Source of the DNA: Oscillospiraceae bacterium
GTDB lineage: Bacteria; Bacillota; Clostridia; Oscillospirales; Ruminococcaceae
DNA length: 13,086 nt
Assembly (NCBI GenBank): GCA_031281115.1
Contig: JAITFV010000303.1
Coordinates: 1 to 13,086 of the forward strand
Direction: 5' to 3'
The notes beneath the pieces were generated by a model. It was not told the origin of the DNA. It ran no database searches and was given only the letters and a program-made list of their open reading frames with translations. A program made the position numbers and the translations under genes. Shown here one piece after another: positions 914 to 9,852 of the stretch (position 1 is the first letter of the stretch; the number at the start of each line of letters is the position of its first letter).

Positions 914-1637
914 TACCGGGGAAATAAAAAACCGAATAGTGCAGTGGATTGCAGATTATTTTAAGAAGAATGCAAGTCCTGACACCAAAGCCGTCATCGG
1001 TATCAGCGGCGGGAAAGACAGCTCAATCATTGCAGCACTTTGTGTTGAAGCGCTCGGCAAAGAGCGCGTTTTCGGCGTTCTCCTGCCGCAGGGCAGGCAG
1101 CACGATTTTGACGTGTCTTATGATTTATGTAAAACCCTCGGTGTTTCTTATATTGAATTAAACATTGAAAAATCGGTTAATGCTTTGTATGACGGCATTA
1201 TAGCAGCCGGGCAAGCGCTCAACGATATCGCAGTTTTCAACACGCCTGCACGGATTCGCATGACCGCGCTTTATGCAGTAAGCGCAGTCATTTGCGGCAG
1301 GGTCGCCAATACCGGCAATCTCAGTGAAGATTACGTCGGCTACTCTACCAAGTTCGGTGATTCGGCGGGCGATTTCAGCCCGCTGTCTGATTTAACAGTC
1401 ACGGAAGTTAAAGCCGTCGGATACGAAACCGGACTTCCCGCCCGATTCATTGATAAAGTTCCGCTGGACGGACTCTGCGGAAAAACAGACGAGGATAATC
1501 TCGGCTTCTCTTATAAGATTTTGGATAAATATATCCGCGAGGGAGTTTGTGAAGATGAGGTTGTAAAACGGGAAATTGACAAGCTTCACGCGCAAAGCCG
1601 ACATAAATATACACCGCTGCCGGCTTTTAAACTTTAG
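906..1637 (+). CDS. nadE: NAD synthetase, ammonia-dependent type
   Basis: NadE catalyses the last step of NAD synthesis, amidating nicotinate adenine dinucleotide with ATP in the cytoplasm. The 243-residue product has the N-type ATP pyrophosphatase loop SGGKDSS (34-40), the conserved TGNLSEDYVGYSTKFGDSAGDFSPL block (136-160) and VPLDGLCGKTDEDNLGFSY near the C-terminus. There is no glutaminase domain, so it should use free ammonia, and the length is normal for the single-domain class. The start ATG 906 lies inside the last codons of the decayed nicotinamidase; only a weak GAGG (893-896) precedes it. With that gene broken, initiation may depend on residual translation of the remnant's C-terminal frame or on this weak site. 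No terminator is visible between 680 and 1637, so it may share the promoter at 144-172. The gene itself looks intact. Confidence 0.96.
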   Translation: MINTGEIKNRIVQWIADYFKKNASPDTKAVIGISGGKDSSIIAALCVEALGKERVFGVLLPQGRQHDFDVSYDLCKTLGVSYIELNIEKSVNALYDGIIAAGQALNDIAVFNTPARIRMTALYAVSAVICGRVANTGNLSEDYVGYSTKFGDSAGDFSPLSDLTVTEVKAVGYETGLPARFIDKVPLDGLCGKTDEDNLGFSYKILDKYIREGVCEDEVVKREIDKLHAQSRHKYTPLPAFKL

Positions 1638-1695
1638 AATTATTTAGAATGCACGGATAATGCTTATGATGTTCATTTTTAGAGAGGTGAGTATA

Positions 1696-2211
1696 TTGAA
1701 CAGAAATGAATTTTATGAAATGATTTTTAAGAAATATTTACACATCGTTAAAAATATAGTAAAAGCCACAATATACTCACGGAATCTCGCCGATATAGAG
1801 GATTGCGTGCAAAATGTCTTGGTTGCGGCTCTTCAGAAGCAAGATTTGCAAGCACACCCGAACATCGAGGGCTGGCTTTACATAACAGGCAGGAACATAG
1901 CCATGCAGTTCAACCGCGAGCATCTGCGGCGAGAAAAGATTATTAACACCGATGATGTTGAATTGTCCGAAAGCGGATTCACAGACAGACTGATTGAAGA
2001 TATTGAATTTGAACGGCTGAAAGAACAGGATTGTATACAAAATGTTTTAGGTGCGCTCTCGAAAACCGAAAAGCACTTTTTTTATTTAAGGTATATAAAG
2101 AAATACAGCAATGGGCAAATCAGCACTATGACAGGAAAAACAGAGGCTGCGGTACGTGTCAGATATACTCGACTCAAAGAAAAGATAAAAAATCTTATAA
2201 AAAATATGTAA
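1696..2211 (+). CDS. RNA polymerase sigma factor, ECF type
   Basis: A 171-residue sigma-70 family protein of extracytoplasmic-function size. Region 2 covers about residues 10-80: LADIEDCVQNVLVAAL, then EGWLYITGRNIAMQFNREHL, the -10 recognition helix area. A linker follows, then region 4 at about 118-171 with a helix-turn-helix (LSKTEKHFFYLRYIKKYSNG, then AAVRVRYTRLKEKIKN) for -35 recognition. The start chosen is TTG 1696, because AGAGAGGTGA (1681-1690) lies 5 bases before it; ATG codons at 1660-1672 lie upstream of that site and have none of their own. It is followed 56 bases later by a membrane anti-sigma-like gene, then a secreted protein gene, the usual arrangement for a sigma factor released by an envelope signal. 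Its own stop codon lies inside the first copy of the shared upstream motif. Confidence 0.88.
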   Translation: MNRNEFYEMIFKKYLHIVKNIVKATIYSRNLADIEDCVQNVLVAALQKQDLQAHPNIEGWLYITGRNIAMQFNREHLRREKIINTDDVELSESGFTDRLIEDIEFERLKEQDCIQNVLGALSKTEKHFFYLRYIKKYSNGQISTMTGKTEAAVRVRYTRLKEKIKNLIKNM

Positions 2212-2231
2212 CAAATGCGTTTTCGTGTGAT
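2207..2231 (+). promoter_or_regulatory. Candidate ECF sigma promoter motif, copy 1
   Basis: TGTAACAAATG at 2207-2217, then TGTGAT at 2226-2231, with 13 bases between TGTAAC and TGTGAT. The same arrangement occurs at 3088-3112, upstream of the next gene. TGTAAC resembles the -35 element of several Gram-positive ECF sigma factors; the 13-base gap is shorter than their usual spacing. It would drive the anti-sigma-like gene at 2268. It overlaps the sigma gene stop codon (2209-2211). Confidence 0.5.
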
Positions 2232-2267
2232 TAATAACATGAAGACTAAAACGGGAGAGGGATTATT

Positions 2268-3080
2268 ATGCCGAAAAAATATAATGAACTTACTTTGGAA
2301 GAATTACGTGCGCTTCTTTTAAGAGGCGAGCTTATACACAAAAACATGGAACAGGAAGACTACGTTATTCTTATGGAAAAAGAGTTTGAAGCGGCAGAAC
2401 CCGACAATGATGTCATAAGGATTTGCGCCCTTGCCCTCGGAAAATACGATGATTATAATGAGCTTGATGAAATTAACATTGATATTAACGAGTTAATTAA
2501 TAAAACCGCCCCGAAAACATCTTCAATAAAGTTAAAAATCAAGCGTTCTCTGCTTATTGCCGCCGCAATAACCGCAGCCCTCTCGATTACACAGCTTGTT
2601 GCAGCGGCGTTCGGGTTCAACATCTTAGGATATATTTTCAATTTTGAGCAGGAACGGCTCGTTGCCGAATATAATCCCGGACCGGATTATGACGCAACCG
2701 GCGAAATGACTTTTGAAATCTATGACGCCTTCTCCGATGTCCCTGCCGCTATGACGATTTTTGTTCCGCAAGCAATAATTGAGGATTTTTCATTCTCCTA
2801 TGCTTCTTCTCTTAATATCGGAAATAATATTTTCGCCTATAAATTTGTGTTTACACGCGATGATGCTGTTTTATCATTTCACATTGATAAAGGCATGGAT
2901 GTCTATATACAAAAAGAGGAGGACTTCTTGGAGGAATACAGCGCAAGCGGCAAAGATTTCACAATTTACAGAGATTTTGAGCAGTTTTATAAGGTGACTT
3001 GGATTGAAAACGGACATCTGTTTGATATAGGTGTAAACCTGCCGCTTGAGGAAATTAAAAATACTTTAGAAAAATTTTAA
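2268..3080 (+). CDS. Membrane-anchored anti-sigma-like protein, DUF4367-type C-terminus
   Basis: A 270-residue protein. Residues 1-90 are acidic and probably cytoplasmic, in the position where an anti-sigma factor binds its sigma. One membrane helix follows at about 94-120 (RSLLIAAAITAALSITQLVA), preceded by Lys/Arg, then an extracellular domain at about 125-270. Its end (KVTWIENGHLFDIGVNLPLE then EIKNTLEKF) resembles the DUF4367 domain found in clostridial proteins encoded beside ECF sigma factors. The start ATG 2268 has a purine-rich GGGAGAGGG (2253-2261) upstream. It lies directly after the sigma gene and before the secreted protein gene. The inferred role is to hold the sigma factor at the membrane until an envelope signal arrives. 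The anti-sigma role rests on gene order and topology; no ZAS-type zinc motif is seen. Confidence 0.7.
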   Translation: MPKKYNELTLEELRALLLRGELIHKNMEQEDYVILMEKEFEAAEPDNDVIRICALALGKYDDYNELDEINIDINELINKTAPKTSSIKLKIKRSLLIAAAITAALSITQLVAAAFGFNILGYIFNFEQERLVAEYNPGPDYDATGEMTFEIYDAFSDVPAAMTIFVPQAIIEDFSFSYASSLNIGNNIFAYKFVFTRDDAVLSFHIDKGMDVYIQKEEDFLEEYSASGKDFTIYRDFEQFYKVTWIENGHLFDIGVNLPLEEIKNTLEKF

Positions 3081-3087
3081 ATTTTTA

Positions 3088-3112
3088 TGTAACAAATGGA
3101 TTTGGACGTGAT
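3088..3112 (+). promoter_or_regulatory. Candidate ECF sigma promoter motif, copy 2
   Basis: TGTAACAAATG at 3088-3098 and CGTGAT at 3107-3112, with the same 13-base gap as copy 1. The motif begins 8 bases after the anti-sigma-like stop codon and 63 bases before the secreted-protein start. The intervening bases differ between copies, which argues against a simple recent duplication. Confidence 0.55.
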
Positions 3113-3150
3113 ATATAGGTAGAAGAATAATTTCAGGAGGAGAAAATAAT

Positions 3151-5370
3151 ATGAAAAAACGTATTCTATCTATGCTTGTAACGGCAGCAATGGTTTTCTC
3201 GGCGGCAGCGGTGATGCCGGTGACGGCAGGTGCAGATTTAAGCGGAGCACTTCACGACTTCAGCGGAACCTGCGGTTTCTGCGACGGTACACTCGTGCGG
3301 CGCGACCTCGGTAAGTTTACTTCGGTTCGTTTGAGAAGCGGCGGTGCAGGAAGCGGTGCAGGCGGCGGCAACCCTTTTGACGGCTGGGCTTTCGACACGC
3401 CTAATATGTCAAGGGCAGGCTGGGAAACTTACAATGACACCTGGGAACATGCAATCACCCCCGTGACCTCTGCCGAACTGCAATCTGCCGAGTATCTGGT
3501 GCTTGAAGTTGACCGCCCGATGAAATCTTCGATTCATTTTGCGAGCAACATACTCGACCCTCATACACGTTTTACGCCGGAGCAGGTGTTCGACGGACAG
3601 AACACTATAATGATTCCCATGTCAATGATTGGTGGACGCGCGCAATTCCTCAACAGGGATATTAGCTCTTTTGACGGCTTTTTAAGGATAGAATTTGCTT
3701 ACGCCAACGCCCCTGAAACAAACTCAAATTCTCTTGACAGGCTTGGGGATGTATCCGCGCTCGGTGTTACTGCGGCTTACATTCTGCTGCGTGACGACTG
3801 CGAGGGTGACAAAGTTTCAACGCCTTTAATTTCTGCACAGGATAGAGAGTGGACACGGACTTTTTATCTCGCGAGCGAAACAAGAGGCGCTTCGATTTAT
3901 TACACTCTTGACGGCTCAACGCCAAGTTCGCTTTCAACGCCTTACAAGGGGAATCTAATAAATCTTCCGCAAGGAAAAACCACTACAATCAAAGCAATCG
4001 CAATAAAAGACGCCATGGAGGACAGCGAAATACTAACCGCCACGTTTGCGATTCCGTCTGCAAACGCTACTACCGCCGGCGGTCCTGGTGTCCTTCCCAG
4101 TGTTGGGGGATGGCGAGTTTTCTCAATTTCATTTAATCTGAACGGCGGAACTTCATCAGCTATAAATAACAGAACGACAGATGCAAACGGCAGAATCACA
4201 CTTCCCGCTGCACCTACGAGAGCAGGTTATACTTTTGCGGGCTGGTTCACAGCCGCGGCAGGCGGCACACGGACAGAGGCAGACAGAGTATACACGGCAG
4301 ATACTGCACTTTTTGCACAGTGGACAGCGAATCAAGTTCAGTCTCAGCCTGTAATTGCACATAAATTCACTACCGCCGATGCGTTGAATATTCTGCGCTA
4401 TGTTGCAGGTATAGTCACACTGACTGACGAGCAGCGGGAAAGGTACGGCATTAACGGCGGCGGTAATATTACCACTGCTAATGCGTTGCGCATACTGCAA
4501 ATCGTTGCGGGGCTTGAAGAGCTGCCCGAACCCGAATCGGAAACCACGCCGGCGCCTATGGGCAGAGTTTCAGGGGCTGCCGGCGATAGCGGCAGAGCGC
4601 CGCAGGGCAGCGGTTCCGGCGGCGGAGGTAGTGCGGGTGCAGGTGGTGGCGGTAATGAAGGCTTTGACCGGGAAAATCGCGACCCTTGGGCTGAATATCT
4701 CAATATCAGAAGCCATACGCGGTGGCCTAATGCAACCCTCTGGGCAAACCTTGACGGAACTTTCCCTGTCAGAGAATACCCGAAGCCATATACCCCTCCC
4801 TCCATTTTGCCCTCGAATCCCGATAATGAAAACAGCAGCGGCGACAGCGACAGAGGTTCGGGCGGAAGCGGAGGAGGAGGAGGCGGGGGTCCACCGCCGC
4901 CGGTTCTTCCGCAGTTCAGAAACCTCGGTGAGCTTTTCACAAGGTTTCTCTCCGCAGAACACAGAATTACCGATACCGGTGCCGGCTTTACTTTTTCAAA
5001 ACCCGAGCGCGACAGATTTGATTATATTGTTCCGGTCAATGTTGAATTTATGAACATTGAGTTTATTAATGATAACGCCGAAAAAGCACTGCCGATTTTC
5101 AGCTTGCTCTCATCGTGGAGGAATGTTACTTATTACAATAGGGATGACGACAGTGAAATAGACGAAATGTATTTTTGGACGAACCTTTATGTTTACGGTC
5201 AGATAAATATAACAATTACCACAAATAACCTCACTTCTGTTGATATAGTTCTCTGGCCCTGGGATGAGATTTTCGTCTATGTGAGCGGGTATGATGGTGC
5301 TTTCATGGCTAAAGTCGAAAGCGGAACTTTTGAGAAGTTGCTTTCGTATCTTATACTGTTATCCATTTAA
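3151..5370 (+). CDS. Large secreted multidomain protein (chitobiase-C-like, InlB repeat, dockerin-like)
   Basis: A 739-residue exported protein. The start ATG 3151 follows AGGAGG (3135-3140) by 10 bases. Residues 1-28 form a signal peptide (KKR, hydrophobic core, AGA before D29). Residues 29-222 are unassigned, with a CGFC pair (41-44) and a Gly-rich patch near 64-73. About 224-301 resembles a chitobiase C-terminal-type domain (IYYTLDGSTPSS). About 325-394 is an InlB/Listeria-Bacteroides repeat (FNLNGGTSSAINN ... PTRAGYTFAGWF ... FAQWTAN). About 404-456 holds two dockerin-like helices (TTADALNILRYVAGI and TTANALRILQIVAGL), but the usual Asp-rich calcium loops are degenerate (INGGGN), so classical cohesin binding is doubtful. 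Two low-complexity Gly/Ser/Pro linkers (about 471-504 and 562-585) precede an unrecognised C-terminal domain (586-739). No LPXTG or membrane anchor is seen. It is probably the surface output of the adjacent sigma system. Confidence 0.85.
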   Translation: MKKRILSMLVTAAMVFSAAAVMPVTAGADLSGALHDFSGTCGFCDGTLVRRDLGKFTSVRLRSGGAGSGAGGGNPFDGWAFDTPNMSRAGWETYNDTWEHAITPVTSAELQSAEYLVLEVDRPMKSSIHFASNILDPHTRFTPEQVFDGQNTIMIPMSMIGGRAQFLNRDISSFDGFLRIEFAYANAPETNSNSLDRLGDVSALGVTAAYILLRDDCEGDKVSTPLISAQDREWTRTFYLASETRGASIYYTLDGSTPSSLSTPYKGNLINLPQGKTTTIKAIAIKDAMEDSEILTATFAIPSANATTAGGPGVLPSVGGWRVFSISFNLNGGTSSAINNRTTDANGRITLPAAPTRAGYTFAGWFTAAAGGTRTEADRVYTADTALFAQWTANQVQSQPVIAHKFTTADALNILRYVAGIVTLTDEQRERYGINGGGNITTANALRILQIVAGLEELPEPESETTPAPMGRVSGAAGDSGRAPQGSGSGGGGSAGAGGGGNEGFDRENRDPWAEYLNIRSHTRWPNATLWANLDGTFPVREYPKPYTPPSILPSNPDNENSSGDSDRGSGGSGGGGGGGPPPPVLPQFRNLGELFTRFLSAEHRITDTGAGFTFSKPERDRFDYIVPVNVEFMNIEFINDNAEKALPIFSLLSSWRNVTYYNRDDDSEIDEMYFWTNLYVYGQINITITTNNLTSVDIVLWPWDEIFVYVSGYDGAFMAKVESGTFEKLLSYLILLSI

Positions 5371-6984: not shown

Positions 6985-7785
6985 TCATCCTCCCGCACTG
7001 CTGTATCTTTTAACCGCAAAATCGAATATTTTCTTAACGGCAAAGAACAGCACAACCGGTATAATCAATCCCCACAGCAGGTAGAACAGCGGGAGATTTT
7101 CAAACAGTGCCATGACAGGGAAATTCGCGATTACAAAAACGGGAATTAAAAATATACCGAGCCTTTGCAGCCAGTTGTTGTAAATCTGCATCGGCATATT
7201 GTTGAAATCCCACATTCTGTCTGCAACATCGGTGACTGCCTGAACTTTTACAGCCCAAAATGACAATAAATACGGAATTAAGAATATGGAATAAGTCAAA
7301 ACAGTGCCGCTTATTATCAGGCAGATATATGTCACAATTTGCACAAAACCGGCTTCCAAACCTAATCTGCTCCACGAAACAGCAACAGTTATAACGCCGC
7401 CTATTATGTTGGGAATCGGAATCGCAAAATCTACCTCACGCATCGTTAAGTGAAACTGAGTGGAAATAGGTTTCACAAGCATTAAATCAAGCTCGCCGCC
7501 GCGTACTCTGTGCGGAATGAAAAAGAAGTTCATCATGAACATTCCGGTATAGAGCGCGGTAAGTAAAATAAAAGTGCCTATAAACAGCGTGATTTCATCG
7601 GGTGAAAGCCCGCCGACTGTGCTGTTTGTCTGATGTACGATAAAGGAATAAATCAGCTTTGTCGCGAGCCATGCACATTCGGCGCCGATGCCGATTATAA
7701 AATTCGCTCTGTATTCAAGCTGCTGCATAATGCAGATTTTCGCGAATTGTTTATAAACCCGCAGGTGTTTTCTAATTTCTTTCAT
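6985..7785 (-). CDS. ABC-2 type exporter permease (second permease)
   Basis: A membrane subunit of an ABC exporter; 266 residues if started at ATG 7785, which has GGGAG (minus strand, plus 7797-7801) about 11 bases upstream. An in-frame ATG at 7803 would overlap that binding site. It has about six hydrophobic helices, beginning NFIIGIGAECAWLATKLIYS and ending LPLFYLLWGLIIPVVLFFAV, and a cytoplasmic basic start (KEIRKHLRVYKQFAK). The loop PHRVRGGELDLMLVKPIS is typical of the ABC2_membrane_6 permeases (COG3694/COG4587 type), which pair with a NatA/DrrA-like ATPase encoded alongside, as here. The substrate cannot be told from sequence. It is the last gene of the operon; the convergent gene ends 12 bases away with no terminator between them. 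Confidence 0.85.
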   Translation of the reverse strand: MKEIRKHLRVYKQFAKICIMQQLEYRANFIIGIGAECAWLATKLIYSFIVHQTNSTVGGLSPDEITLFIGTFILLTALYTGMFMMNFFFIPHRVRGGELDLMLVKPISTQFHLTMREVDFAIPIPNIIGGVITVAVSWSRLGLEAGFVQIVTYICLIISGTVLTYSIFLIPYLLSFWAVKVQAVTDVADRMWDFNNMPMQIYNNWLQRLGIFLIPVFVIANFPVMALFENLPLFYLLWGLIIPVVLFFAVKKIFDFAVKRYSSAGG

Positions 7786-7805
7786 GTAATAATATTCTCC
7801 CATAT

Positions 7806-7876: not shown

Positions 7877-8701
7877 TCACCCCCTTGCGGCAATGTATTT
7901 TTTCATGCCTACCCGCCAGTAAAGCTTGGATAACCCCATGAAAATTAAAATCCAGACCAATTGCATTGCCACACCCTCGAAAACTTGAGCGCGCGTGGCG
8001 TTGCCGACGACGATATTAAGCGGAAAGTAAATAATGTACTGGAACGGCAGAAAGCGCAGAATCCCTACGATTGTCTCCCCGAATACGCCAATCGGGAATA
8101 TACCGCCGCTCAGAATCGTTGTAACCACTCCCCAGCCGTTGAAAACTCCCCAGCCCCAGGTCAGCCAGAAGCTGGTCGCCGAGAGGAAATAAAACATCAT
8201 GGCGTTTATTAACAGCGACAGCGGCGCGATAGCCAAAGCTACTAAAATATTCAAGAAGCTGAATTCTGCGCCGACCGTGAAAACAAGCACGATTAACAAT
8301 ACCGAACCTATAATTATTGCCATTAAATTTTCCACAACTTTTGCGCCGAGAAAGCCGACAATTCTATACGACATATGACCCACGGGCTGAACGAAAAAGC
8401 GGTTCATGTTACCTTCCATTATGTCGGACATTATATCGTATTCAAAGCCGGTAGCAACGATTCTTGCCATGATTGCCGCCATGACGATGTAGACAACCAT
8501 TTGACTGTATTCATAACCGAACAGCACGGCTTCTTCCTCTGCCTGCCCGCCGTAAATCGCCGTCCACAGGAAAAGCTGAATAATAACCGTAAATCCGCCG
8601 CTGATTAAGCTCATCAGGAAATCCATCCGGTATTCCATCTTTGCCTGCATTTCAAGCTTGAATATGGCGGCATATTTTTTTAGGACTTTCATTATTTTCA
8701 C
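7877..8701 (-). CDS. ABC-2 type exporter permease (first permease)
   Basis: Membrane subunit of the exporter, 274 residues from GTG 8701, which overlaps the ATPase stop codon in a GTGA arrangement and so is probably translationally coupled; ATG 8692 is an alternative start. It has a basic cytoplasmic start (KVLKKYAAIFKLEMQAKMEY) and about six helices, including SGGFTVIIQLFLWTAIY, VVENLMAIIIGSVLLIVLVF and QLVWILIFMGLSKLYW. The loop YDIMSDIMEGNMNRFFVQPV before the third helix is the family hallmark of ABC2_membrane_6 permeases, which form heterodimers with the second permease. It ends just before the heptamer repeat. Confidence 0.87.
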   Translation of the reverse strand: MKIMKVLKKYAAIFKLEMQAKMEYRMDFLMSLISGGFTVIIQLFLWTAIYGGQAEEEAVLFGYEYSQMVVYIVMAAIMARIVATGFEYDIMSDIMEGNMNRFFVQPVGHMSYRIVGFLGAKVVENLMAIIIGSVLLIVLVFTVGAEFSFLNILVALAIAPLSLLINAMMFYFLSATSFWLTWGWGVFNGWGVVTTILSGGIFPIGVFGETIVGILRFLPFQYIIYFPLNIVVGNATRAQVFEGVAMQLVWILIFMGLSKLYWRVGMKKYIAARG

Positions 8702-9504
8702 CCGGTTCCACCCCCATTTTCGCCGTTTTCATACAGCTTGGTAATTGCTTCTTCAATAGTGGAATCGACAACTATATCAGATAGATTCCCGTCATATGCA
8801 AGAAGCCCCTCGTTAATGACAATCGCGCGCTTGCAAAGGCTTTCTATGTCGCCCACATAATGGCTTGTCAGCAGAATCGTTGCTCCTGTTTCCTCATTAT
8901 AATGCCTTATGAATTCGCGGATTGTTTTCTGCGAAACAAAGTCTAAACCTATTGTCGGCTCATCTAAAAAGATAATCTTCGGGCGGTGAACAAGCGCGGC
9001 AATCAGCTCCATTTTCATGCGTTCGCCGAGACTCAAGCGGCGTACCTGCGTCTTCATCAGCGGCTCGACTCCAAGCAGCTCAACAAGCTCACCGACTGTC
9101 TTTTTGTATACAGCATCGTCAACTTCATAAATGCATTTGTTAAGATTAAAGGTTTCGATTGCGGGCAAGTCCCAGTTGAGCTGAGTTTTTTGCCCCATTA
9201 CAATCGAAAAGCCCATCTTAAACGCTTTTTTGCGTTCCCAAGGCGTAAAACCGCCGACTGTCGCCGTGCCGCTCGTTGGAAATAAAATCCCGGACAGCAT
9301 CTTTAAAGTGGTGGTTTTTCCCGCTCCGTTAGGCCCGATGAAGCCTACGATTTCGCCTGCCTCGATGTTGAAGTTAATGCCGTTGACGGCTTCTTTTTTG
9401 AGTTTTTTGCGTTTGATTACATTCCTTAGTGAATTCTTCAGCCCTTGTTCTTTTTGATAATAATCGTAATGTTTTTTTAAGTTTTCTACCTTGATTATCT
9501 GCAT
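8698..9504 (-). CDS. ABC exporter ATP-binding protein (NatA/DrrA-like, COG4586 type)
   Basis: A 268-residue cytoplasmic ATPase that powers the two permeases encoded after it. Motifs: Walker A GPNGAGKT (57-64), a Q-loop around Q105 (VMGQKTQLNWDLP), signature LSLGE (157-161), Walker B IIFLDEPT (177-184, E182 catalytic) and switch His215 (LLTSHYVGD). The N-terminal extension with a basic patch (NVIKRKKLKKEAV) before the first core strand, and the WDLPA segment after the Q-loop, are typical of the COG4586 class, which occurs with COG4587 and COG3694 permeases. ATG 9504 has AAGGAG (minus strand, plus 9511-9516) 6 bases upstream. All catalytic residues are present, so it should be active. The substrate is unknown. 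Confidence 0.93.
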   Translation of the reverse strand: MQIIKVENLKKHYDYYQKEQGLKNSLRNVIKRKKLKKEAVNGINFNIEAGEIVGFIGPNGAGKTTTLKMLSGILFPTSGTATVGGFTPWERKKAFKMGFSIVMGQKTQLNWDLPAIETFNLNKCIYEVDDAVYKKTVGELVELLGVEPLMKTQVRRLSLGERMKMELIAALVHRPKIIFLDEPTIGLDFVSQKTIREFIRHYNEETGATILLTSHYVGDIESLCKRAIVINEGLLAYDGNLSDIVVDSTIEEAITKLYENGENGGGTG

Positions 9505-9560: not shown

Positions 9561-9594
9561 ATTATAACGCGGTAAATTTGACAGCTGTATGTCA
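9561..9594 (-). promoter_or_regulatory. Possible promoter and operator-like dyad for the ABC operon
   Basis: On the minus strand a perfect TATAAT (plus 9561-9566) lies about 57 bases before the ATPase start. No good -35 sits at 17 bases. The -35 region instead holds a dyad TGACA-N6-TGTCA (plus 9579-9594), as might be seen at an activator-dependent or repressed promoter. The bases 9538-9557 resemble the right edge of the dispersed repeat (17 of 20 positions). Confidence 0.35.
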
Positions 9595-9612: not shown

Positions 9613-9648
9613 AAAAATTCCCCGCACGAATGTTTCATCCGCACGAGG
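9613..9648 (-). terminator. Rho-independent terminator of the small gene
   Basis: The minus-strand RNA forms a 13-bp stem (CCTCGTGCGGATG with CATTCGTGCGGGG, AAA loop) followed by AATTTTT. Nine pairs are Watson-Crick and four are G-U. On the plus strand those four become A-C mismatches, so the structure is specific to minus-strand RNA. It lies 24 bases after the small ORF and upstream of the ABC operon. Confidence 0.8.
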
Positions 9649-9672
9649 CTGCTCAACGTATCACGATTTAAA

Positions 9673-9786
9673 CTAAATCGGTTTATAATACGGTGAAAGG
9701 CGGTTGAAACTATTCTGTTTTTGGACACAGCTATCCCATAAATAAGTAAAATCACCTGCGATTCTAACAATAACTCTCTTTTTCAT
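9673..9786 (-). CDS. Small hypothetical protein, 37 residues
   Basis: ATG 9784-9786 to TAG 9673-9675. The peptide begins MKKRVIVRIAGDFTYLWDSC and ends NRLSPYYKPI: basic at the N-terminus, one Cys, aromatic, with no clear membrane helix. It is preceded by AAAGGTGGTG and GAAAGG (minus strand, plus 9790-9805), by a consensus promoter at 9824-9852, and followed by a terminator at 9613-9648, so it forms a complete transcription unit of about 205 nt. A perfect 7-bp dyad (CGATTTA / TAAATCG, 9664-9680) covers the stop codon. The family is not recognised. It could be a small protein, a dual-function RNA, or a leader peptide whose translation controls read-through into the ABC operon, which starts about 170 bases downstream on the same strand. 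Confidence 0.6.
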   Translation of the reverse strand: MKKRVIVRIAGDFTYLWDSCVQKQNSFNRLSPYYKPI

Positions 9787-9823
9787 TGACCTTTCACCAC
9801 CTTTCTTTAATATGATATTGTTC

Positions 9824-9852
9824 ATCTTAACATATATGGCAAGAAATGTCAA
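9824..9852 (-). promoter_or_regulatory. Sigma-A promoter of the small gene
   Basis: On the minus strand TTGACA (plus 9847-9852), a 17-base spacer and TAAGAT (plus 9824-9829), giving a start near 9817, about 31 bases before the small ORF. It is divergent from the cheV promoter, with 65 bases between the two -35 boxes. Confidence 0.75.

Follow-up and report, generated by a model that had tools for sequence, protein, structure and literature searches.

A short leader unit on the minus strand of the window (the whole 13,086-nt stretch of Oscillospiraceae DNA that was analyzed) very probably controls the three-gene ABC exporter operon behind it as a ribosome-mediated transcription attenuator. The unit spans positions 9852-9613 and contains a promoter, a strong Shine-Dalgarno sequence (SD), a 37-codon open reading frame (ORF), a dyad over the stop codon, and a terminator. 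A sequence-only reading of this DNA had listed the promoter, SD, ORF, and minus-strand terminator, and all of them lie where it had placed them. Its account lacked the central feature, a stretch in the 3' part of the ORF that can pair either with the SD or with the terminator arm. These three elements make up the switch. On sequence, the leader holds the parts of an attenuator, namely an ORF whose translation is supported comparatively, a terminator between the ORF and the main gene, an antiterminator exclusive with that terminator, and an anti-antiterminator.

The window contig (G000:C275) is one of the 333 contigs of its own genome. The promoter (9824..9852, minus strand) is of the sigma-70 type, TTGACA-17-TAAGAT, with an extended -10 (TG). 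By itself, such a promoter-like match is near chance (6 found vs. a shuffled mean of 4.1 in 1.5 kb). Across the 20 members of the leader family described below, the best promoter-like site scores 9-12 of 12 in each, and in 16 it ends 29-38 nt 5' of the start codon (best site chosen; no chance control). This site lies 58-87 nt from the start codon in L006, L041, L045, and L048, in some of which the scored site may be another one. The SD, AGAAAGGTGGTGA (13 nt, 9806-9794, minus strand), is a sequence that we take to be a near-perfect match to the 16S 3' end. The ORF, MKKRVIVRIAGDFTYLWDSCVQKQNSFNRLSPYYKPI, runs on the same strand from the ATG at 9786 to the stop codon TAG at 9675-9673 (9673..9786).

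The intrinsic terminator (9613..9648, minus strand) consists of a 13-pair stem (9648-9620), the loop AAA, and an AATTTTT U tract. Its stem contains exactly four G-U pairs, where the plus strand would have C-A mismatches; reading the sequence confirmed the strand assignment that had been made on these grounds. The dyad reported over the stop codon is also present (CGATTTA-GTT-TAAATCG, 9680-9664, minus strand). It lies inside a longer stem, P2 (9657..9692), formed by CGTATTA (9692-9686) and TGATACG (9663-9657) and nested inside the antiterminator. Alignments of 8 and 11 members showed compensatory changes at some outer pairs of P2. The inner dyad is peculiar to the window; a stem at the equivalent place pairs in most of the 11 aligned members.

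The 20 leaders form one sequence family, with nine members in the window's genus, three elsewhere in the order, and eight in named public MAGs. When 99 genomes, among them that of the window, were searched at the DNA level, clear homologues turned up in genomes of the same genus. Eight elements (the window, L002-L006, L009, and L010) served to build a covariance model of the 3' module, and the structure in this model comprised the terminator and the stop-codon stem only. Among 71 genus genomes, this model found those eight and L035 in six genomes (E≤2.5e-7), together with 11 weaker rows having E values between 7e-4 and 0.1. From a search of 394 genomes belonging to the order, in which 10 candidates were scored for each, L039-L041 were accepted and three others were not. 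A pattern scan of named genomes resulted in 14 matches, of which five were already known, one was a chance match, and eight were new (L045, L046, L048, L049, L052, L053, L054, and L057). The sources of the eight were Defluviitaleaceae (3), Ruminococcus sp., an uncultured bacterium, Clostridiales, Oscillospiraceae, and Lachnospiraceae. The pattern fixes much of segment 2 (defined below) and the first terminator bases while leaving the loops free, and the uniform segment 2 of these eight is therefore partly a product of selection.

The same covariance model found the window alone in a class-wide search of 391 genomes (10 candidates per genome scored), and only the known member in two further families (3 and 18 genomes). 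Plasmids and phages searched for the L040 ORF and viral contigs searched with the family pattern gave no match. Several candidates were left outside the 20. L036 carries the 3' module and an ABC gene, and no family SD or ORF was seen there. On their matched strands, L027, L028, and L038 lack any match to AAAGGYGGTGAA. By eye, L042-L044 were judged to be ordinary terminators, L058 and L045:2074-2172 are chance matches, and L008 and L011-L013 match only SD-like or stray sequence. The weak-match rows L025, L026 (one strand read), L029-L032, and L037 also stand outside. No description of this leader family appeared among the open-licence PMC papers listed, judged by titles and abstract beginnings, and an earlier description elsewhere is possible; the sequence family is apparently undescribed.

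The core of the leader is segment 2 (9691..9715, minus strand), which lies in the 3' part of the ORF and consists of GAATAGTTTCAACCG, the partner of the terminator arm, followed by the anti-SD-like CCTTTCACCG. It is complementary to segment 1, the SD and start-site strand AGAAAGGTGGTGAAAGGTCA (9787..9806, minus strand), forming the anti-antiterminator 1:2. It is also complementary to segment 4, GCGGATGAAACATTC (9628..9642, minus strand), which comprises the terminator 5' arm and loop, forming the antiterminator 2:4. Helix 2:4 is mutually exclusive with 1:2 and with the terminator helix 4:5, segment 4 being common to 2:4 and 4:5. Two registers are possible for 1:2 in the window, GGTGAAAGG with CCTTTCACC and GAAAGGTGGTGAAA with TTTCAACCGCCTTTC, the latter being the stronger by duplex calculation.

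Partner swapping between the members supported both alternative helices. For 2:4, the cognate duplexes had a mean of -15.31 kcal/mol vs. -11.70 kcal/mol for swapped ones, and none of 20,000 permutations was as good (20 members). Restricting the comparison to the 12 distinct segment-2 sequences gave -15.62 vs. -11.45 kcal/mol, again with 0/20,000 permutations; the mean z was -3.83. In L004, L005, and L048, the cognate duplex was weaker than the member's own swapped mean. For 1:2, the cognate mean was -19.48 vs. -16.64 kcal/mol when swapped (0/20,000 permutations, 20 members), 20 of 20,000 permutations were as good with the 12 distinct sequences, and the mean z was -3.05 relative to dinucleotide shuffles. 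The window duplex reached -20.2 kcal/mol (z -4.0 vs. shuffles). Exceptions were L010, L039, and L054, with a cognate 1:2 duplex weaker than the swapped mean, and L040, where the two were equal. The best 1:2 duplex adopts a shifted register, which still engages the SD and segment 2, in four cases: the window, L004, L006, and L010. These permutations ignore the tree, and the family sequences are related; L010 was given its own segment limits for the duplex tests owing to an 18-nt insertion.

Covariation pointed in the same direction. The 10-pair terminator helix was 98.6% paired across the family alignment, with both-side changes in eight of the 10 pairs. For 2:4, we used alignment A3 (21 rows), which was fitted to the terminator and stem and not to 2:4, and which includes the chance match L045:2074-2172 and a misaligned L010. 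With one recurrent mismatch position omitted from the structure, 84.2% of the cells were paired over 14 pairs, and 8/14 pairs had both-side changes. Shuffles of A3 reached the five 2:4 measures 0, 8, 0, 15, and 0 times in 500. Slid versions of the 2:4 structure were 30-50% paired on A3, a comparison biased towards the unslid structure, whose columns had been taken from a single member (L039). Many members share a mismatch at one antiterminator position, with A facing G or A; in the window it falls within 9628-9642.

The window antiterminator is unremarkable in isolation, and the case rests on the comparison between members. Its duplex amounts to -14.7 kcal/mol, and 51 of 108 other terminator-like hairpins have an equal or stronger upstream partner. 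The 19 detected members had a mean upstream duplex of -17.3 kcal/mol vs. -15.3 kcal/mol for the 108 others (Mann-Whitney p 0.012). Taken across the family, the terminator arm and loop covary with the ORF end, and sequence comparison leaves the RNA architecture of 1:2, 2:4, and 4:5 well supported.

These helices suggest how the switch may work. With no ribosome on the leader ORF, segment 1 would pair with segment 2, hiding the leader ribosome binding site. Segment 4 would then be free, the terminator 4:5 would form, and the operon would be off. A freely running ribosome would cover segment 2, after which 1:2 would re-form and the operon would presumably stay off. A ribosome held at the start or the first few codons would instead cover segment 1, so that segment 2 could pair with segment 4. 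This helix would enclose the stem over the stop codon, no terminator would form, and RNA polymerase would be expected to enter the operon. The inducer is probably a drug or a stress under which ribosomes become arrested at initiation or immediately after it, and the exporter may remove the ribosome-targeting compound.

The predicted effect of ribosome position was assessed by folding the transcripts as they stand just before the 3' arm of the terminator emerges, which gives equilibrium predictions without polymerase or timing. In the free transcripts, the mean 1:2 index was 0.83. The mean antiterminator probability rose from 0.17 to 0.58 when a ribosome footprint was masked on the start site (20 members). 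This masking raised the antiterminator by more than 0.05 in 15 of the 20, and in the window from 0.00 to 0.64. When the ribosome was moved along the ORF two codons at a time, the antiterminator value was 0.55 at codons 0 and 2 and 0.21 in mid-body (18 members); over segment 2 it was 0.00, and at the final position it was 0.21. The folding thus predicts that a ribosome positioned at the start site flips the switch.

Individual members departed from this average. The antiterminator was preferred already without a ribosome in L004, L006, and L039 (0.73-0.90), and its start-masked value remained at or below 0.15 in L002, L005, L045, L046, and L052. L045 responded at codon 4 and L046 at codon 2; L005 formed the antiterminator at no ribosome position. 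In the window, the value was already down to 0.03 at codon 2, and further peaks occurred at codon 34 (0.60) and partly at codon 16 (0.37).

The three-helix logic is like that of a trp-type attenuator, in which ribosomes stall at particular leader codons when a charged tRNA is short, and the long-type members share a Cys-containing end, DCFECLSP, both points in favor of such sensing. Reading the sequences revealed no stretch of a repeated codon among the 37 of the window ORF and no codon run common to the 20 ORFs. The Cys codons lie on segment 2, where a ribosome gives an antiterminator value of 0.00, and the downstream genes are mostly exporters and ABC-F genes, not biosynthetic ones. Amino-acid sensing is therefore very unlikely, although it survives best among the alternatives.

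The frame of the leader ORF is open from the start codon to segment 2 in all 20 members, as compared with 0/20 in the +1 frame and 1/20 in the +2 frame. Because the unit recurs in 20 members with this frame open, it is more than a chance arrangement, and translation of the leader ORF is well supported by the comparison. The sequence-only reading had reasoned that relatives keeping the RNA without the frame would point to an RNA gene; both are kept. The same result bears on a ribosome-independent switch responding to a small molecule, a protein, or temperature, with the ORF as a passenger. In its favor, the competing helices are strong, and heat could open 1:2. Nevertheless, the frame is preserved through ORFs of 24 to 88 codons, and one of the switch strands consists of the SD and start codon. 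Furthermore, Rfam had no match for the leader in the window (elsewhere in the window only a tRNA was found), and over 11 loci (E≤0.1) it returned only a sub-threshold ar15 match in L039. We give such a switch a very small probability, ranking it below amino-acid sensing.

The peptide itself is unlikely to be the product. By eye, no alignment of the short-type peptide bodies is apparent beyond the 3' part; L002, L003, L052, and probably L035 read the conserved 3' RNA in another frame; and third codon positions show only a slight excess of differences. In 12 long-type ORFs, with L052 omitted owing to its frame, the differences at first, second, and third positions numbered 1525, 1487, and 1770 over 3471 codon comparisons, the pairs being non-independent. 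This excess is small for a protein under selection. The long-type peptides are recognizably conserved, a profile search with 16 of these ORFs retrieving 371 homologous proteins (threshold E≤0.001). Among the best 120 of these, none carried a Pfam domain or any name except 'hypothetical protein', and Pfam had no match for the three leader ORFs scanned. An independent small protein with its own terminator, incidentally close to the operon, had been the other option offered by the sequence-only reading; despite the complete transcription unit, the conserved long-type peptides, and the slight third-position excess, it is now the least probable account, given the divergent short-type bodies, the members using another frame, the smallness of that excess, the covariation of the terminator arm and loop with the ORF end, and an ABC-type gene that follows the leader on the same strand in 19/20 members (in L004 behind two hydrolase genes).

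Two features of the ORFs deserve mention in their own right. Nine of the 20 begin with MKQ or MKL. The long-type bodies (e.g., L009, L010, L039, and L040) contain recurring hairpins, GGGATAGCTATGCCC, often followed by Ts (by eye), which encode repeated DSYALL-like peptide motifs; one relic is found in the window at about 9737-9723 (minus strand). It is possible that these are pause hairpins.

The operon assigned to the attenuator lies on the same strand, as had been noted, and begins about 110 nt beyond the leader. Gene 1 (8698..9504, minus strand) encodes an ABC ATPase (ABC_tran; the best NCBIfam model is DrrA, below its cut-off). Genes 2 (7877..8701) and 3 (6985..7803), on the same strand, encode ABC-2 permeases (both PF06182, ABC2_membrane_6). 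Elsewhere in the window, 3151-5370 of the plus strand holds a 739-residue ORF with a signal-peptide-like start and low-complexity Gly/Ser stretches (by eye), and its product is perhaps a secreted or surface protein.

Exporter genes follow the leader in 13 of the 20 members, L004 included. ATPase-first ABC-2 operons stand behind it in the window, L002, L003, L005, and L006, and permease-first ABC-2 genes in L009, L010, L041, L046, L049, and L057 (in L041 and L057, the ATPase is outside the view). L004 has two hydrolase genes (one scanned, PF00144) before two permeases and an ATPase, and L035 has a permease-ATPase fusion, i.e., a fused ABC exporter, cut by the locus end. L036 (G053:C16) carries a fused exporter resembling that of L035, with a response-regulator gene ending just upstream. 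ABC-F genes follow in 6/20 (L039, L040, L045, L048, L052, and L053), and in L054 the leader precedes a 1039-residue protein (1540-4659) whose only Pfam match is an N-terminal GNAT domain. Family searches covered the window genes, L046, L035, L054, the L004 hydrolase, and three of the six ABC-F genes, and similarity to these served to assign the rest. Of the ABC-F proteins, the three that were scanned (L045, L048, and L053) scored above the cut-off of NCBIfam NF000355, 'ribosomal protection-like ABC-F'. The solved chain nearest to the L053 protein is 8buu, which was deposited with PMC10201436 and is presumably VmlR2.

The gene neighborhoods and the conserved frame support the suggestion of a leader that governs read-through by being translated: the RNA and the frame are both retained in related genomes, and 13/20 leaders precede exporters. 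An ORF occurring far from exporters had been named as evidence against a leader. The relatives do not show this separation in 13/20 cases; any notion of a leader specific to exporters, however, fails on the six ABC-F genes and the GNAT protein.

Six of the 71 genus genomes contain a close relative of the ATPase (E≤1e-90), and five of the six have this leader. The sixth, G016, has an ortholog of the ABC operon with a different leader (L064, G016:C76, about 1100-1440, reverse strand), which by eye comprises its own promoter, a 30-codon upstream ORF (uORF) starting from GTG, and another terminator in the same place. The leader type can thus change while the layout of uORF and terminator stays. 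In L064, a CTCCTTT 5' of the terminator could pair with the SD there.

A palindrome, TGACA-N6-TGTCA, followed after 12 nt by TATAAT, was found by pattern search 3' of the window terminator (9561..9594, minus strand). Among the window and the 13 loci searched, the palindrome and the -10-like hexamer are present in eight, with small variations and a spacing of exactly 12 nt: besides the window, these are L002 (1733), L003 (1729), L004 (367 and 1640), L005 (1045), L006 (1751), and L036 (1608) on the plus strand, and L064 (2340) on the minus strand. The element separates the leader from the ABC or hydrolase gene that follows, including in L064 with its other leader. It is possibly a second promoter with its own regulator or operator, which, if real, would bypass the switch.

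Taking the family as a whole, we lean slightly towards the view that it is a large undescribed family of ribosome-occupancy switches in Clostridia, a plug-in sensor of arrest at initiation whatever the drug. If this is true, the reading frame is a strap tying the start site of the leader to its own end, a ribosome resting at the start site is what is sensed, and one module has come to stand before resistance-type genes of at least four kinds. The attenuator has an unusual geometry and is reused in front of several such kinds. One sequence family marks resistance-type genes across several clostridial families, offering a means of predicting which exporters and ABC-F genes, as yet unannotated, respond to ribosome arrest. 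Pairing of the start site with the ORF's own end leads to the prediction that mainly first-codon ribosomes induce. In the parts considered, the description of each ABC-F or drug-exporter leader compared here is confined to a single gene or a single ABC-F family (PMC9226507, PMC4191407, PMC10201436, PMC10314930).

The vmlR leader of Bacillus subtilis, which like bmrB has been studied by experiment, offers a close parallel. According to the sections of the paper drawn on here, a stalled ribosome on a short ORF prevents formation of an anti-antiterminator, and the antiterminator displaces an intrinsic terminator; the leader controls a ribosome-protecting ABC-F, and induction relies on arrest during initiation (PMC9226507). 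In that account, the vmlR uORF has three codons (Met-Ile-Asn) in the bulge of one local stem-loop, whereas the present ORFs have 24-88 codons. Its SD lies in a single-stranded region before the stem, whereas here the anti-antiterminator is formed by the SD/start of the ORF with its own 3' part. The vmlR leader is also described as hiding the SD of the main gene (PMC9226507).

Attenuation by uORFs is likewise described, in the portion of the paper used, for the clostridial and bacillar ABC-F genes cplR, VmlR2, and LsaA (PMC10201436). The VmlR2 uORF consensus given there, MK[L/Q], resembles the MKQ/MKL beginnings noted above. The cplR, VmlR2, and LsaA uORF consensuses cover 3-4 residues, in contrast to a frame whose 24-88 codons end in a switch strand (PMC10201436). 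As far as these partial descriptions go, the present leaders are not of the vmlR/cplR sequence kind, given the length of their ORFs and the pairing of SD/start with a distant ORF end. The msrD/mefA leaders also use transcription attenuation by an antibiotic-stalled ribosome on a leader peptide (PMC10314930, in part). There, msrDL has six residues, the stall occurs at its stop, and the stalled ribosome obstructs the terminator directly, unlike here. The uORFC-6-1 motif ahead of the ribosome-rescue gene hflX also combines a conserved uORF with a covarying RNA structure; the passages considered describe it for Bacillales and hflX, with an Arg-Leu-Arg motif (PMC8632094), and its likeness to the present leader is one of description, not of sequence.

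The bmrB leader of bmrCD in B. subtilis was likened to the window leader in the same way, by description and not by sequence. BmrCD is a heterodimer whose subunits are permease-ATPase fusions, whereas the window operon encodes an ABC-2 exporter. As described in the part of the report used, bmrB has a 53-codon ORF and alternative stem-loops ahead of a drug ABC exporter, and induction needs translation of the leader (PMC4191407). The bmrB and window leaders are alike in placing an ORF of tens of codons ahead of an ABC exporter; the bmrB terminator lies within the coding region, unlike that of the window (PMC4191407). By analogy with these systems, the best reading is that the window leader works like vmlR and bmrB, with a geometry of its own.
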